The position numbers were made by a program, and so were the translations under genes. Below, piece after piece: positions 32,159-39,671 of a stretch of DNA of 64,000 nucleotides (its first letter is position 1; every line of letters begins with the position of its first letter). Source of the stretch: Robiginitomaculum sp. (GTDB lineage: Bacteria > Pseudomonadota > Alphaproteobacteria > Caulobacterales > Maricaulaceae); the NCBI GenBank assembly GCA_002733805.1, contig NVXG01000030.1, positions 1 through 64,000 on the forward strand. The letters run 5' to 3'. The notes beneath the pieces are model-generated. The model was not told where the DNA came from. It did not search any database and saw only the letters and a program-made list of their open reading frames with translations.

Positions 32159-33532
32159 TTAGAAATAATCGGCACTGACGCGAAACATTTTCTCGACCAC
32201 AGGAACTTTGTCTCGTTCAACAAACAAGATGACATGATCATCCGGCTTAACCACGAAGGACCCGCTGGGAAACAGAACTTCATCATTTCTGGTCACCGCG
32301 CCGACACGAATACCATCCGGAATATCCAATTCTAGCAAAGGTTTACCAACTAAAGGTGATGTAGATAATGCAATGGCTTCGATCACTTCTGCCTGACCGT
32401 CCTCAACCGTTTGGACTGCCAAAATACGTCCGCGCCTAACGTGTTGCAAAATGGTTGAAATCGTGGTCTCGCGCGGATCCACAAAGATATCCACCTTTAA
32501 GGGTTCTTTGAGTGAGTTCAAAGTCCGGTCGTTAACTAGGCATAAAGTACGTCGCACCCCAAACTCTTTGGCCAGTCCGGCCGATAACACATTTACCCGA
32601 TCATCATCAGTCAGGCTGATGGCGATATCAGTGCTATCCATCCCGGCTTCAATCAACGTATCCCGATCCAGACCATCACCGTGCAACACAACGGTTTTTT
32701 TCAAAGAGATCGAGGCCTGTTGGGCTGTTTTCTTATCAATTTCGATCATGCGAACCCGGACACCGGCCATTGTTTCCAGCTCACGCGCTACATGTACGCC
32801 GATATTACCGCCGCCAATCATGACGATTTTTCGCCCGCGATCTTCAGTTCGACCCAATATGTCCAAGGTTCGGGCAATTTGGTTTTTATGGGCGATAACA
32901 TACACCTCATCACCGGCCAAAATTTGATCCTCGCCTTTTGGAACGAATAATTTCCCGGCCCGCTTCACCCCGACAACCATCGAATGCAAATCCGGGAACA
33001 ATTCGGTGAGTTGGGTCAAAACCGTGTTGGCGATCGGGCAATTGTCGAGCAATCGCACCCCAAGCAAACTGACCCGACCATTTGAAAATGGTGTGTTCAT
33101 AAAGGCACCCGGTGTCGTAACCCGTTGCAAAACGGCCCGCGCCACCTCCAATTCCGGGGAAATGATGACATCAATCGGCATGTTATTACGAGAGAATAGA
33201 TCCTGCCACGCCGGGTCCAGATAGCTTTGCGCCCGCACTCGGGCAATCTTGGTCTGCACATCAAATAAGGAATGAGCCAACTGACAGGCAACCATGTTCA
33301 CTTCGTCGAGATAGGTAACAGCGATAATCATATCGGCGGTTTCAATACCGGCCCGAACCAACACCTCCGGATGCGCGCCATGACCGACTACGCCTCTGAC
33401 ATCCAGATTTGTACTGATTTTCTGAATTAGCGAGTTGGATAAATCTATGACTGTCACTTCGTTATTTTCGGCGCACAGTTTCTCGGCAATACCATACCCG
33501 ACCCGACCGGCGCCGCAGATGATAACTTTCAT
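32159..33532 (-). CDS. trkA: Trk system potassium transporter TrkA
   Basis: MKVIICGAGRVGYGIAEKLCAENNEVTVIDLS and second Rossmann IGGGNIGVHVARELE. Confidence 0.96.
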   Translation of the reverse strand: MKVIICGAGRVGYGIAEKLCAENNEVTVIDLSNSLIQKISTNLDVRGVVGHGAHPEVLVRAGIETADMIIAVTYLDEVNMVACQLAHSLFDVQTKIARVRAQSYLDPAWQDLFSRNNMPIDVIISPELEVARAVLQRVTTPGAFMNTPFSNGRVSLLGVRLLDNCPIANTVLTQLTELFPDLHSMVVGVKRAGKLFVPKGEDQILAGDEVYVIAHKNQIARTLDILGRTEDRGRKIVMIGGGNIGVHVARELETMAGVRVRMIEIDKKTAQQASISLKKTVVLHGDGLDRDTLIEAGMDSTDIAISLTDDDRVNVLSAGLAKEFGVRRTLCLVNDRTLNSLKEPLKVDIFVDPRETTISTILQHVRRGRILAVQTVEDGQAEVIEAIALSTSPLVGKPLLELDIPDGIRVGAVTRNDEVLFPSGSFVVKPDDHVILFVERDKVPVVEKMFRVSADYF

Positions 33533-34923
33533 TATTCGGCTCCCAGATCACCGCGTTTGGATGAATGTATGCCAAGGGTTTTTAATTTTCGGTGTAAAGC
33601 GGAACGTTCCATTCCAATATAATTGGCAGTTCTCGAAATGTTACCACCAAATCGACTGATTTGCACTTCAAGGTATTCGCGCTCAAATTCCACTCTGGCA
33701 TCGCGCAGGGTCAAAGACACCAAGCGATCGACACTGATCCCGCCCTTTTCATTAGAAGGTTCACTGTTTTCTGGTATATCATCCAGCGTGATGGCCGTTT
33801 CATTGGAACCTTTGGCCAAGATCATCAAGCGTTCTACGTAATTCCGTAATTGGCGGACATTCCCCGGCCATTCGGCCGCTTGCATCCAACCCATGACGTC
33901 TTCGCCGATTTCGCGAACAACCATTCCGGAAGACTGACTGATTTTATCGGCAAAATATCGCACAAGGTCCGGTATATCCTCGCGGCGCTCGTTTAGCGAG
34001 GGCACGGAAACCGGCACTACATTTAGCCGGTGATACAAATCCTCCCGAAAACGACCATTAGTGATTTCCGCATTCAGATCCCGTGACGTGGAACTGATCA
34101 CCCGGACGTCTACACTTACCGGGTGTTGCCCCCCTACTCGCCGGAACCGTTGCCCCACAAGAATTCGCAACAATTTACCTTGGGTTTGCATCGGCATATC
34201 AGAAACTTCATCGATATAAAGTGTGCCCATATGGGCCTGCTCAAACAGGCCGGTTTTTGTGGTCCTGCCCCGTTGATCTTCAATGCCAAATAATTCCTGC
34301 TCAACCGTTTCCGGGCTCAACGCAGCGGCGTTGATCACCACGAACTCACCAGCATGTCGGTGCGATTGCTGGTGGATTTTTCGTGCCACAGTTTCTTTGC
34401 CAGCCCCAAGCCCGCCATAGACCAATATCCGGGAATTGGCTTGTGCAACTTTTTGGACAATTTGACGAATGGCATTGATGTTTGAGGAGTTTCCAATCAA
34501 ATCTAGGTTGGCCACATCCTTGGCGCGCAATGCGATATTTTCACGCTTCAATTTTGAAAGTTCCAAAGCTCGACGCACCAGAAGTAGCAACCGCTCGCTC
34601 TTGAACGGCTTTTCAACAAAGTCGTATGCACCTTTGCGAATGGCGGCCACTGCCGTCTCAATCGTACCATGACCCGAAATCAAGATAACCGGTAAGTCCG
34701 CGTCAAGCCGCTTGACCTCTTCTAATACGCCCAACCCGTCCAGATCGCTGCCATGCAACCAGACGTCCAGCACGACAAGAGCTGGCTTTCGTTCTTGCAC
34801 AGCGTTTAACGCTTGCGTTGCATCCGCCGCAGTACGGGTTTGGTAGCCCTCATCCTCAAGGATGCCCGCAACCAATTCACGAATATCTTCTTCATCATCA
34901 ACGATCAATATATCTGCTGACAT
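33532..34923 (-). CDS. ntrX: NtrX-type response regulator
   Basis: ILIVDDEEDIRELVAGILEDEGY receiver; GTLYIDEVSDMPMQTQGKLLRIL; Fis-type HTH NISRTANYIGMERSALHRKLK; follows ntrY. Confidence 0.93.
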   Translation of the reverse strand: MSADILIVDDEEDIRELVAGILEDEGYQTRTAADATQALNAVQERKPALVVLDVWLHGSDLDGLGVLEEVKRLDADLPVILISGHGTIETAVAAIRKGAYDFVEKPFKSERLLLLVRRALELSKLKRENIALRAKDVANLDLIGNSSNINAIRQIVQKVAQANSRILVYGGLGAGKETVARKIHQQSHRHAGEFVVINAAALSPETVEQELFGIEDQRGRTTKTGLFEQAHMGTLYIDEVSDMPMQTQGKLLRILVGQRFRRVGGQHPVSVDVRVISSTSRDLNAEITNGRFREDLYHRLNVVPVSVPSLNERREDIPDLVRYFADKISQSSGMVVREIGEDVMGWMQAAEWPGNVRQLRNYVERLMILAKGSNETAITLDDIPENSEPSNEKGGISVDRLVSLTLRDARVEFEREYLEVQISRFGGNISRTANYIGMERSALHRKLKTLGIHSSKRGDLGAE

Positions 34924-37148
34924 CAGGTTTTCCCCTGTTTATTTTCTAGTTTTGATATTGGAAAGCTAAGGCGAACCACCGCGCCTTGTTGTTCGTCTTT
35001 TCGGTCGCGTAATTCCAGCTTCCCGTGGTGATCTTCCATAATCCGCTTTACGATGGCCAGTCCAAGACCGGTACCCTTTTGCCTCGTTGTAAAATAAGGT
35101 TCAACCAAGCGTTGTCGGTTGCTGACCGGCCAGCCCGGACCGTTATCGATAACGTCCAAAATGGCAAAACCATCTATTTGGCTTATTTCTAGCTCGATCA
35201 GCGGATCACTTCCCTTTGCAGCACCTGTTTCGGTAGCTTCGGCTGCATTTTTCAGCACATTCAAAATGGCTTGCGCCGACAAGCGAGCATCGCAATCAAC
35301 CTGAAATTTTGGTTCAGTTTGTCCAAATTCAAATTTAACAGACGGAAATGAAACCTGCTGACCAAACATGGTTTCACGGACCAACTCGTTCAGGTCCACC
35401 GATTCGATTTTTGGCTCTGGCATTCGGGCAAACGAAGAAAACTCGTCGACCATTCGGCCGATATCCCCGACTTGGCGGGTGATCGTATCCAGACACCGGT
35501 CAAAAATGGCTGGGCTGGTCTTAATTTCATCACGGTATTTACGACGAATACGCTCGGCAGAGAGTTGAATGGGGGTCAAAGGATTACGAATTTCATGGGC
35601 AATACGTCGGGCCACTTCACGCCATGCCGCACTACGCTGATCGGAAATCAGTTGGCTCATATCATCAAATGTAATGACAAAGCCCTCATCATTACTTTTG
35701 CCTTCCGGGGTGATGTTCACATTCAGTATCATGTGTTGGTGTTGGTTTTCGCTTTCAAACTCAACAACCCCCTGCACGACTTGACCGGAGGACTCGGAAG
35801 TTTGATCCAGTAGGTTTTTCAAAAATGGGGCAATATCCAAAACCGATTTGCCGATCAACTGATCTGCATCCAACGATAACAAGGAGCCAGCAGAGGAATT
35901 AGCCAAGGTAATTTTTAGCTGGTGATCTACACCCAAAACACCGGCGCTTACCCCAGACAATACGGCCTCGGTAAATCGTCTTCGGTGTTCGGACACATCA
36001 TGTGCAGCAATCAATTCGGCGCGCTGTGTCCCCAGAATTGCGGTCATTTCATTAAAGTCCCGTGCCAAGCTGGCCACTTCGTCATTTTGATTGCCGGGAT
36101 CGACCCGAACGTCCAGGTCACCATCTCGGACCCGGTGCGCTGCCAAGGCCAGACGGCCAATGGGAAACACCACTTGGTTGGCGGCTGCTAATCCAACCCA
36201 GATCGCACCGATCAGCACCAACAATGCGGCTTCGACATAGACCAACGCAAAGGAGCGGGTCAGCCGCCCTCTTTGTGAATTAGCTTCGCGATACGCGTTG
36301 CGCGCCCCTTGGGCTTCAACCAGATTGAGCAAGCTGCCACCAGTGGCATAACGCGCAACGTACAAATATGCGTCCGTATAGGCTTGCAGACGGAAAAGCC
36401 CCCGGATCAGGTTTTTTTCATTTTCAAAATGCAAGTTGATGCTGCCACTATCTGCGGCCAATAAGGCTTCGGCCGTGGGTACGGCAAAAGGCGGAGAAGA
36501 ATCAAATTCAGCCAATGACAAAATTGCCCCTGAACTGTCGATAATATACGCAGCCTGAAAGAAACGCAGTTCGGCCTGTCTCCGTAGATAGCTGGTGTAT
36601 AATATGGGGCCATCCTTGAACTGCGAAACCGCTTGCTGCTGGTTCAAGTCAATCGCCATCGGTCTGATTTCGCTGACCACTTGATCCCGTTCGGCATTAA
36701 AGGCCGCTTCGGCAACTGTCGCGGCCCGATCCACCGCCGTTTCCACCACCGGTGAAAACCAACTCTCAATCCCTTGAGAATACACGACCGCAAAAAATAT
36801 ACCGACCACAACAGCTGGCAAAACCGCTGCGCCACTGAACAACATGGCAAACCGTACGTGTAAGCGAGGTGCAAATTCATCGCCCGGCAGAGGTTGTCTG
36901 AGCCGGATCAACCGCCAGCCTAAATAAAAAGCCAGCCCCAGGATCAAACCGAGATTGCCGACCAAAATCATAAACAAGGATTGGCTGGCTGGCCCCAACT
37001 TGCCCGCACCAGACAGGGCAAAATAGGCACATAAAATGGTGGCCGTGATGGTCAGGGCATACAGCGCACCAAAAATGGCTGAAGACAGCAAATTGAGCGG
37101 TCTGGAAAACCGTGCAGCAACTGGACTGGATGAAACGGAAAGGCTCAT
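34923..37148 (-). CDS. ntrY: NtrY-type sensor histidine kinase
   Basis: N-terminal TMs, HAMP, PAS, HEIRNPLTPIQLSAERIRRKY, DNGPGWP, GTGLGLAIVKRIMEDH. Confidence 0.95.
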   Translation of the reverse strand: MSLSVSSSPVAARFSRPLNLLSSAIFGALYALTITATILCAYFALSGAGKLGPASQSLFMILVGNLGLILGLAFYLGWRLIRLRQPLPGDEFAPRLHVRFAMLFSGAAVLPAVVVGIFFAVVYSQGIESWFSPVVETAVDRAATVAEAAFNAERDQVVSEIRPMAIDLNQQQAVSQFKDGPILYTSYLRRQAELRFFQAAYIIDSSGAILSLAEFDSSPPFAVPTAEALLAADSGSINLHFENEKNLIRGLFRLQAYTDAYLYVARYATGGSLLNLVEAQGARNAYREANSQRGRLTRSFALVYVEAALLVLIGAIWVGLAAANQVVFPIGRLALAAHRVRDGDLDVRVDPGNQNDEVASLARDFNEMTAILGTQRAELIAAHDVSEHRRRFTEAVLSGVSAGVLGVDHQLKITLANSSAGSLLSLDADQLIGKSVLDIAPFLKNLLDQTSESSGQVVQGVVEFESENQHQHMILNVNITPEGKSNDEGFVITFDDMSQLISDQRSAAWREVARRIAHEIRNPLTPIQLSAERIRRKYRDEIKTSPAIFDRCLDTITRQVGDIGRMVDEFSSFARMPEPKIESVDLNELVRETMFGQQVSFPSVKFEFGQTEPKFQVDCDARLSAQAILNVLKNAAEATETGAAKGSDPLIELEISQIDGFAILDVIDNGPGWPVSNRQRLVEPYFTTRQKGTGLGLAIVKRIMEDHHGKLELRDRKDEQQGAVVRLSFPISKLENKQGKT

Positions 37149-37238: not shown

Positions 37239-38582
37239 CTATTTTTGATCAGGGTCGAGAGTAGACAGTTTTTTGCGTAAGGTGTTTCGGTTGATGCCCA
37301 ACACCTTTGCTGCCTTGACCTGATTACCGTCCAATTGCTCTAGAACCAGTTGTAACAACGGTCGTTCAACCGCCTCGATCACCTGTCGATAGAGCAGTCC
37401 ATCACCAGTTTTTATATTTTGCAATTCCGATGCTCGTTGCAAGAGAGCTTCCATCTGGCCCTCCAAACCGGCACTTGGCGGGAATGACCCCGGTTGAGAT
37501 GCACGCAATTCGTCCAGCTGTACGCTATCCAAGATGCTTCCGGAATAGATCGTGGCCGCCCGGATCATCAGATTTTTCAATTGCCGAACATTTCCTGGCC
37601 AATGCGCGGCTCGCAATTTTTGTAGGCTTTCTTCACTCAATCGCATTTGTCCGGCGGATGCTTCATCCAAAAAAGTTTCAGCTAAACCTCCAATGTCGTC
37701 TTTTCGTTTGGATAGTTTGGGCATGAAGATTTGCAAAACATTCAGACGATCAGCCAACTCGCCAACAATCGGAGCCTCTTCTGAGGCCTGCAACTCTGTG
37801 GGCAATGCCGTGGCAATCAACCGTAATTGCTGGTCTGTGCTGCTTTGCCGATCCAGCCAGTCGCATATCCATAATTGCCGGGCCGGTTCGAACCGGTCCA
37901 GTCGTTGTAACACCAACGTCCCGGTTGGTCTTGCCTCGGAAGACGAAAGCCATTCCTTCATTTGGTCATCTGGAGTGGTTGCCTGCAAGCGGATCAATGG
38001 CGCGCTTTCATCGTCACCATATTTATGAATGGTTTCGGCCACCCGAAATTTACCGGTTCCCGGCTCGCCAATAATCAGTACAGGGTGAACCGATCTAGCC
38101 GCTTTGGTTATGGTCCGCATCACGTGATGCATCGAGGCAGATTTTCCCGAAACAGGCTCTTCAACACGTGGTTTGGCTTGAGTATTTCCGGTTTCTTTTT
38201 CCAGTAACGCGTTGGCAATTGCTGAAGCCAATTGCGAAAAACTATAGGGTTTGGCAAAGAAATCCACGGCACCAAAACGAGCCGACAATAACGAGGAAAG
38301 CACTGTGTTTTCACCGCCCATCGCAATAATGGGGCAATCCGGGTTTACTTTTCTGATTTCCTGCATGACATCAAATCCGTTGCGGTGTGCATCGAACAAA
38401 TCAACATCGAGCAAGACAATTGCTGATTTTGCATTGGCTGCCCAACCCAGAATTGTTGACAAATCATCGGTAGCGCGCACGCCATAGCCCAGAGAGGCCA
38501 AGTCTCGGGCCAATGAAGAACGCCCCTTTTTATCGCCATTGGCAATCAGGACTTTTGGTTTTGAATTTGCGGAACGTTTCAT
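37239..38582 (-). CDS. ntrC: Divergent NtrC-family protein (receiver - degenerate AAA+ - Fis HTH)
   Basis: Walker A GEPGTGK, AHWPGNVRQLKNLM, HTH NQVKAAKVLGINRNTLRKKL; adjacent to dusB. GAFTGA absent; Walker B reads GTLVLQRLDRF. Confidence 0.85.
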   Translation of the reverse strand: MKRSANSKPKVLIANGDKKGRSSLARDLASLGYGVRATDDLSTILGWAANAKSAIVLLDVDLFDAHRNGFDVMQEIRKVNPDCPIIAMGGENTVLSSLLSARFGAVDFFAKPYSFSQLASAIANALLEKETGNTQAKPRVEEPVSGKSASMHHVMRTITKAARSVHPVLIIGEPGTGKFRVAETIHKYGDDESAPLIRLQATTPDDQMKEWLSSSEARPTGTLVLQRLDRFEPARQLWICDWLDRQSSTDQQLRLIATALPTELQASEEAPIVGELADRLNVLQIFMPKLSKRKDDIGGLAETFLDEASAGQMRLSEESLQKLRAAHWPGNVRQLKNLMIRAATIYSGSILDSVQLDELRASQPGSFPPSAGLEGQMEALLQRASELQNIKTGDGLLYRQVIEAVERPLLQLVLEQLDGNQVKAAKVLGINRNTLRKKLSTLDPDQK

Positions 38583-39592
38583 GCGACCTGCTTAACCGAG
38601 GTTTGGGCCAGATCGTTTTGTAATGCGGTCAGCTTGCTGTGAATTTCAACCGCATCAGCACTGCGGCACAATTGTTGTCGCGTCTTGCTGATCTCCAACT
38701 GATCTTGGCTATGGGAACAAACCGCATCCAACGTCCAAGCAATATGTTTGCGAAACATTTTTATGCCAATGGTCGGTCCATATAATTGCAAACTGCCTTG
38801 AAATTGTTCCAACAAAAATCCAACCTGCTGTGCTGGATCAGGTATGGATGATGATCTACCGGCCATTTGATTGGCAATGTATCCGGGCAACCACGGACGA
38901 CCATAGGACGCCCGGCCTACCATCACACCATCGGCACCAGATAGGTCCATGGCTCTTTTGGCATCCTCGGCCGAAGCGATATCGCCATTGACCAATAATG
39001 GAATTTTGAGCACATCGCGAACCGGGCGCACCGCCGCCCAATCGGCATCTCCCTTGTAAAACTGGCACCGAGTACGACCGTGCACACTGACCATGGCAAT
39101 CCCGGCTTGCTCGGCCCGCTGGGCTAATTCTGGTGCATTCAGCGAGGCATGATCCCAACCCAGACGCATTTTCAAGGTTACCGGCACATCGACCGCATCA
39201 ATCACTGCCTCGATCAGCCCCATGGCATGATCTAAATCACGCATCAGCGCGGAGCCAGAGGCTCCCTTGGTCACATGGCGTGATGGACACCCCATGTTGA
39301 TATCAATGATTTGCGCCCCAGCATCGACAGCCATCTTTGCCCCTTCGGCCATCCAGATGGCTTCGCGCCCGGCCAATTGCACGACAAACGGTCCCGGCGA
39401 TGCGTCCCTGGCAATTTTTCGGAGCATGTCCCGCCGACCACCAACCAATTGTTCGCTGGCGGTCATTTCACTAATGACCAGACCCGCCCCCAGCTTTTTG
39501 ACCAATTTGCGAAATGGCAAATCCGTTACGCCCGACATCGGGGCCAGAACTACTGGATTTTCTAGCTGAATGTTTTGTATATATAAGGTCAT
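38579..39592 (-). CDS. dusB: tRNA-dihydrouridine synthase (DusB/NifR3)
   Basis: VVLAPMSGVTDLPFRKLVKKLGAGLVISEM, IDINMGCPSRHVTKGASGSALMRD, GVMVGRASYGRPWL. Confidence 0.95.
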   Translation of the reverse strand: MTLYIQNIQLENPVVLAPMSGVTDLPFRKLVKKLGAGLVISEMTASEQLVGGRRDMLRKIARDASPGPFVVQLAGREAIWMAEGAKMAVDAGAQIIDINMGCPSRHVTKGASGSALMRDLDHAMGLIEAVIDAVDVPVTLKMRLGWDHASLNAPELAQRAEQAGIAMVSVHGRTRCQFYKGDADWAAVRPVRDVLKIPLLVNGDIASAEDAKRAMDLSGADGVMVGRASYGRPWLPGYIANQMAGRSSSIPDPAQQVGFLLEQFQGSLQLYGPTIGIKMFRKHIAWTLDAVCSHSQDQLEISKTRQQLCRSADAVEIHSKLTALQNDLAQTSVKQVA

Positions 39593-39671
39593 AAGCCGGT
39601 GATCATTTATTGGTGCCAAATTTTAAGCACCATTGAGGGCAGTGGTGCAACTTTTTAAGCAGGGTCTGGTC

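Follow-up and report, generated by a model that had tools for sequence, protein, structure and literature searches.

NtrB and NtrC form a textbook two-component system, and the locus described here raises the question of what an NtrC protein may still do when its kinase, the acid pair of its receiver and the catalytic residues of its ATPase have disappeared. The locus lies in a 64,000-nucleotide stretch of DNA from Robiginitomaculum sp. (contig NVXG01000030.1, positions 1 to 64,000), which is referred to as the window. From these letters, the original prediction had described a 447-aa NtrC-like protein as a non-hydrolysing, sigma-54-independent DNA-binding regulator. We come to a related but wider answer: NtrC has probably been reduced to a DNA-binding regulator that works without kinase, ATP hydrolysis and sigma-54 and that has kept its nitrogen regulon.

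An NtrC orthologue without ntrB

The open reading frame at positions 37239-38582 of the reverse strand is intact and encodes 447 aa with the complete NtrC domain set, i.e. a receiver (REC), an AAA+ sigma-54 interaction domain and a Fis-type helix-turn-helix (HTH), as detected with Pfam (Response_reg, Sigma54_activ_2, AAA_lid_14 and HTH_8). The top NCBIfam match is TIGR01818 (ntrC) with 206.9 bits, which is under the cut-off of 558.6. The gene order dusB-ntrC-ntrY-ntrX-trkA, with ispDF divergent and upstream of dusB, preserves the position of ntrC in the dusB-ntrB-ntrC-ntrY-ntrX synteny, from which ntrB is absent. The protein represents the NtrC orthologue of this Robiginitomaculum-like alphaproteobacterium. 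Related genera have ntrB (about 350 aa) between dusB and ntrC; in the window, dusB (38579-39592, reverse strand; TIGR00737, 322.8 bits; likely ATG at 39592) overlaps the start of ntrC by 4 bp, and no ntrB lies between the two. The same strand carries ntrY, encoding a sensor kinase (34923-37148; NtrY_N, HAMP, PAS, HisKA and HATPase_c), and ntrX (33532-34923; NF051870, 709.6 bits). NtrX of the window is also devoid of GAFTGA (IEDQRGRTT) and keeps the REC acid pair, Walker A, Walker B and both arginine fingers. The loss of GAFTGA from Caulobacter NtrX has already been published (PMC10274813). An Rfam scan of the window gave a single match, a tRNA.

Among the named species genomes, the sole close match to the protein, with 83% identity and the same substitutions, comes from a MAG labelled Robiginitomaculum sp. 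An assembly error or contamination is ruled out by this independent MAG and by 16 more congeners with the ntrB-less locus.

Residues kept and lost

The residues were assigned by aligning the protein to L043, a canonical NtrC-family protein with GAFTGA, and to relatives from the Caulobacterales. The individual observations of the original prediction are borne out by this alignment. The Walker A motif GEPGTGK is intact (38049-38069, reverse strand, as for all following residues; K178 at 38049-38051), and so is the Fis-type HTH with NQVKAAKVLGINRNTLRKKL (residues 401-441; 37260-37382; Pfam HTH_8). The Walker B DE is replaced by Q226-R227 (37902-37907), the segment that should carry GAFTGA is shortened by a 16-residue deletion (approximately at 37908-37950), where SSEARP is followed by the gap and then by TGTLVLQRLDRF, and N15-G16 (38535-38540) occupy the place of the acidic D-D pair of the receiver. 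Neither GAFTGA nor the Walker B DE was found anywhere else in the protein. Further features had been passed over, namely V273 (37764-37766) in place of the first arginine finger, G89 at the T/S switch position of the receiver, the absence of ntrB and the retention of the phospho-acceptor D59 (38406-38408), of K111, of the second arginine finger R279 and of the sensor-II residue R333. The receiver set of acid pair and phospho-Asp is thus incomplete, and of the features of a sigma-54-activating bEBP the protein lacks GAFTGA, Walker B and the first arginine finger and has the second finger. The deletion of GAFTGA combined with the retention of Walker A is a trait of the R. capsulatus-like, sigma-70-type NtrC.

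Every residue test hence agrees with the predicted non-hydrolysing and sigma-54-independent regulator. However, the loss of GAFTGA is not peculiar to this protein: the motif is missing in all Caulobacterales NtrC proteins that were aligned, and its loss from Caulobacter NtrC has already been published (PMC10274813).

A loss of sigma-54 as the cause is ruled out, as the window genome contains rpoN and several strong sigma-54-activation domains. Since rpoN is still present, it is NtrC itself that appears to be uncoupled from sigma-54. A search for sigma-54 promoters upstream of glnB, amt and dusB yielded nothing above shuffles. A weak GG-N10-GC element, located at about -76 of glnB and common to the two closest genomes (L111 and L101), does not exceed shuffles either; it could still be a sigma-54 promoter and to that extent speaks against the reading favoured here.

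Joint loss of NtrB and the acid pair in the genus

The genus was represented by 18 genomes, the window genome and 17 congeners from a whole-genome collection. In a tree of NtrX and NtrY, the genus and a sub-clade without Walker B each have a support of 100%. Common to the whole genus is the loss of NtrB, of the acid pair in the receiver and of the first arginine finger. The acid pair is gone in all genus proteins that cover it and acidic in all NtrB-bearing relatives aligned, and in the residue table its loss coincides exactly with that of NtrB. An NtrB profile detects genes with 318-523 bits at the ntrBC locus of relatives with NtrC; in the 18 genus genomes, it found nothing above approximately 110 bits, and many of the residual matches are NtrY. 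Thus, a relocation of NtrB to another place in the genome is ruled out as well. Phosphorylation by NtrB, another trait of the R. capsulatus-like, sigma-70-type NtrC, is accordingly missing here.

We also surveyed 200 Caulobacterales genomes with profiles for NtrC (E <= 1e-90) and NtrB (E <= 1e-60), which detected the two proteins in 139 and 135 genomes, respectively. Of the four genomes that have NtrC and lack NtrB, three are the sampled members of the genus and the fourth is G197, whose NtrC score is weak and within the range of paralogues. Outside the genus, NtrB and NtrC are either both present or both absent. Within the 200-genome sample, the retention of NtrC without NtrB is therefore peculiar to the genus. 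As far as alignments and profiles can tell, the peculiar trait of this NtrC is the genus-wide joint loss of NtrB and the acid pair, which the original prediction had overlooked.

Within the genus, Walker B is lost in one sub-clade of seven (the window genome, G012, G016, G015, G006, G014 and G009), in which the T/S switch is G; the D/E of Walker B is mostly retained in the sister sub-clade of ten. Outside the window's sub-clade, L058, L060 and L027 (from G008, G010 and G001) have EE, DN and EG at this position, which resembles an incipient loss. Outside the genus, Walker B or its catalytic Glu has been lost with the acid pair kept in G021/G025/G030, G059, G027 and G039/G051/G043, and NtrB is present in all Walker-B-altered lineages that were checked. 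The NtrC proteins of G030, G021 and G025 (L067, L071 and L064) have lost AAA+ catalytic residues independently while NtrB and the acid pair were kept, and in G030 and G021 the Walker A lysine is replaced by arginine. Judging from these substitutions, the ATPase seems to have become dispensable more than once. We infer that GAFTGA probably went first, no later than in the ancestor of the order. The genus would then have lost NtrB as well as the acid pair and the first arginine finger, and Walker B would have come last.

A palindrome upstream of nitrogen genes

A comparison of glnB leaders first revealed a 17-bp palindrome, TGCYTAWWWWWTARGCA, with the TGC-N11-GCA register known from enteric NtrC sites. 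The 18 genus genomes contain 22 exact matches (0 to 2 each) and not a single match to the reversed pattern, which was used as a control. By our own assignment, all 22 sites are located upstream of the ammonium-assimilation genes glnBA, the ammonium transporter gene amt or dusB-ntrC. The genomes are related, so neither this count nor those of the tandem spacing below represent independent events. On the evidence of the sequence, sites in the NtrC register are hence present at nitrogen genes. In Caulobacter, glnBA and glnK-amt are direct targets of NtrC, and the ChIP motif of this protein reportedly resembles both Fis and NtrC motifs (PMC10274813).

The glnB sites are located 105-155 bp upstream of the start codon, a distance that fits upstream activation. 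In 13 of 15 glnB leaders, a second TGC-N11-GCA (at least five of six positions) lies exactly 22 bp upstream, and any other tandem offset tested was found in at most four leaders; with this spacing, two putative dimers would bind the same face of the DNA helix. The window genome (3.72 Mb) has one exact match only. It precedes amt (L129), at a distance of 41 bp to the start of the open reading frame and of approximately 110 bp to the likely signal-peptide ATG. In the window, a putative NtrC site, TGCTTAAAATTTGGCA (39614-39629, reverse strand), precedes dusB-ntrC at 21 bp from the dusB ATG and is one base short of the genus consensus. The position of this site, adjoining the start codon, suggests autorepression. 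A second, weaker element of the TGC-N10-GCA type, TGCTTAAAAAGTTGCA (39647-39662, reverse strand), was noticed in the divergent ispDF/dusB region; in the closest relative, G012, it is a full 17-bp TGC-N11-GCA. The glnB site of the window genome, TGTATATAAACTATGCA, is alone no better than shuffles, and no clear -35 and -10 elements could be placed beside the palindrome. The sites are thus partly degraded in the window's sub-clade, and regulation may be decaying there.

The palindrome could also belong to another Fis-type factor, above all to NtrX, and NtrC would then regulate something else. Indeed, NtrX is widely present and has a similar Fis-type HTH, and the motif was assigned by position and comparison. 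However, the TGC-N11-GCA register matches NtrC. Moreover, full six-of-six sites also precede glnB in some genomes that carry NtrC and lie outside the genus (G022, G047, G039 and G046), and six genomes without NtrC have none, a sample that is small and not significant alone. We consider it quite unlikely that the palindrome is the site of another factor.

Purifying selection on ntrC

The frame of ntrC is open and free of internal stops in all 18 genomes, one copy being ended by a contig edge. Pairwise dN/dS values of NtrC range from 0.08 to 0.14 (six pairs), which is above those of NtrX and NtrY and far below 1. For NtrC as a whole, dN/dS is 0.103; by domain, between the window and G012, it is 0.040 for the REC, 0.146 for the AAA+ and 0.099 for the HTH domain. 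Conservation within the genus is highest in the HTH and the receiver, and the AAA+ domain and the linker diverge fast. The ntrC gene is not decaying, and purifying selection maintains NtrC.

These data bear on the idea that ntrC is being lost and owes its present survival solely to chance or to its place in the operon. The rapid divergence of the AAA+ domain and the linker, the disappearance of several catalytic features and the degraded dusB and glnB sites of the window's sub-clade would be in line with such a decay. However, the low dN/dS, above all in the receiver, the conserved HTH and the absence of frame breaks argue against it, and so do the presumed binding sites, which are conserved in sub-clade B and, in the window genome, at amt. 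Moreover, NtrB and NtrC are jointly absent elsewhere in the order, which shows that ntrC can be lost. A decaying gene is thus very improbable.

Possible mode of action

With NtrB gone and the Mg-binding acids of the receiver lost, NtrC of the window would be either constitutive or controlled in another way, and the usual phosphorylation would be impossible. With Walker A kept, the catalytic Walker B lost and the first arginine finger replaced, the protein is predicted to bind ATP and not to hydrolyse it. Likewise, the residue losses should make the activation of sigma-54 polymerase impossible. Comparative genomics suggests that NtrC binds TGC-N11-GCA in front of glnBA and amt as well as its own operon, dusB-ntrC, at glnBA presumably as two adjacent dimers 22 bp apart, and that it would control these genes through the housekeeping polymerase. 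Candidate inputs are a ligand such as ATP, bound by the intact Walker A pocket or by the conserved pseudo-receiver, a protein partner and the level of NtrC itself.

Alternatively, NtrC could act like that of R. capsulatus as an ATP-bound oligomer that contacts sigma-70 polymerase from the tandem sites, with phosphorylation coming from NtrY or acetyl phosphate. Such an activator would make sense of the strongly conserved REC domain, of the retained Walker A, D59 and K111 and of the location of the tandem upstream of glnB. However, both Mg-binding acids are gone in every member of the genus that covers them, the T/S switch is G in the window's sub-clade, and phosphotransfer without Mg is not expected. 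We therefore regard a phosphorylated activator as unlikely and favour the kinase-free and hydrolysis-free regulator.

Relation to known systems

NtrC proteins without GAFTGA that work with sigma-70 are already known, and so are relatives that are independent of phosphorylation and ATP, such as VpsR. For instance, NtrC of Caulobacter crescentus, which belongs to the same order and gene family and has also lost the GAFTGA loop, acts at sigma-70 promoters and binds the glnBA and glnK-amt promoters (PMC10274813, PMC12421884). In that organism, NtrB is present and K178, D235 of Walker B and D56 are needed (PMC10274813, PMC12421884), whereas the window has lost NtrB, the acid pair and Walker B and has kept the Walker A lysine and the phospho-Asp. 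For growth on ammonium, Caulobacter depends on the phospho-Asp of its NtrC and on the residues of both Walker motifs (PMC10274813); an NtrC that functions without them would thus require a changed mechanism. According to the account given in PMC10274813, Rhodobacter capsulatus NtrC, which shares the lack of GAFTGA, works with sigma-70 and requires the binding of ATP and not its hydrolysis (Bowman and Kranz 1998). As described there, it also requires aspartyl phosphorylation, whereas NtrB and the Mg site have been lost in the window. The same account presents Vibrio cholerae VpsR as an NtrC-like protein without GAFTGA that is active at sigma-70 promoters and needs neither phosphorylation nor ATP (PMC10274813). 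However, unlike the NtrC of the window, VpsR is neither an NtrC orthologue nor a nitrogen regulator, and it has a different regulon. Atypical or aspartate-less receivers keep the REC fold with an altered acidic triad and signal independently of phosphorylation (PMC4395418). In that published survey, acidic triad-1 is usually retained, whereas the window protein has kept the phospho-Asp and lost both other acids. Our literature search, which covered few subscription journals, found no NtrC orthologue without NtrB, the Mg site and a catalytic Walker B that still has its presumed regulon sites, and it returned nothing relevant on NtrC of Robiginitomaculum or the Hyphomonadaceae.

It is conceivable, and we put this forward tentatively, that NtrC controls the classical nitrogen regulon and needs neither phosphorylation nor ATP hydrolysis nor sigma-54, that the nitrogen status reaches it by another route, either via a ligand such as ATP, bound by the Walker A pocket or the pseudo-receiver, or via a protein such as PII, and that the lineages of the genus preserve the steps from an enhancer-binding ATPase to a simple DNA-binding regulator. 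The genus offers a natural deletion series: the order in which the kinase, the receiver chemistry and the ATPase were lost can be read off, and the gene and its presumed regulon sites are still there. This bears on the question of how the GAFTGA-less NtrC of Caulobacter works at sigma-70 promoters and why its ATPase residues are needed, when related proteins appear to have dispensed with them independently in several lineages.
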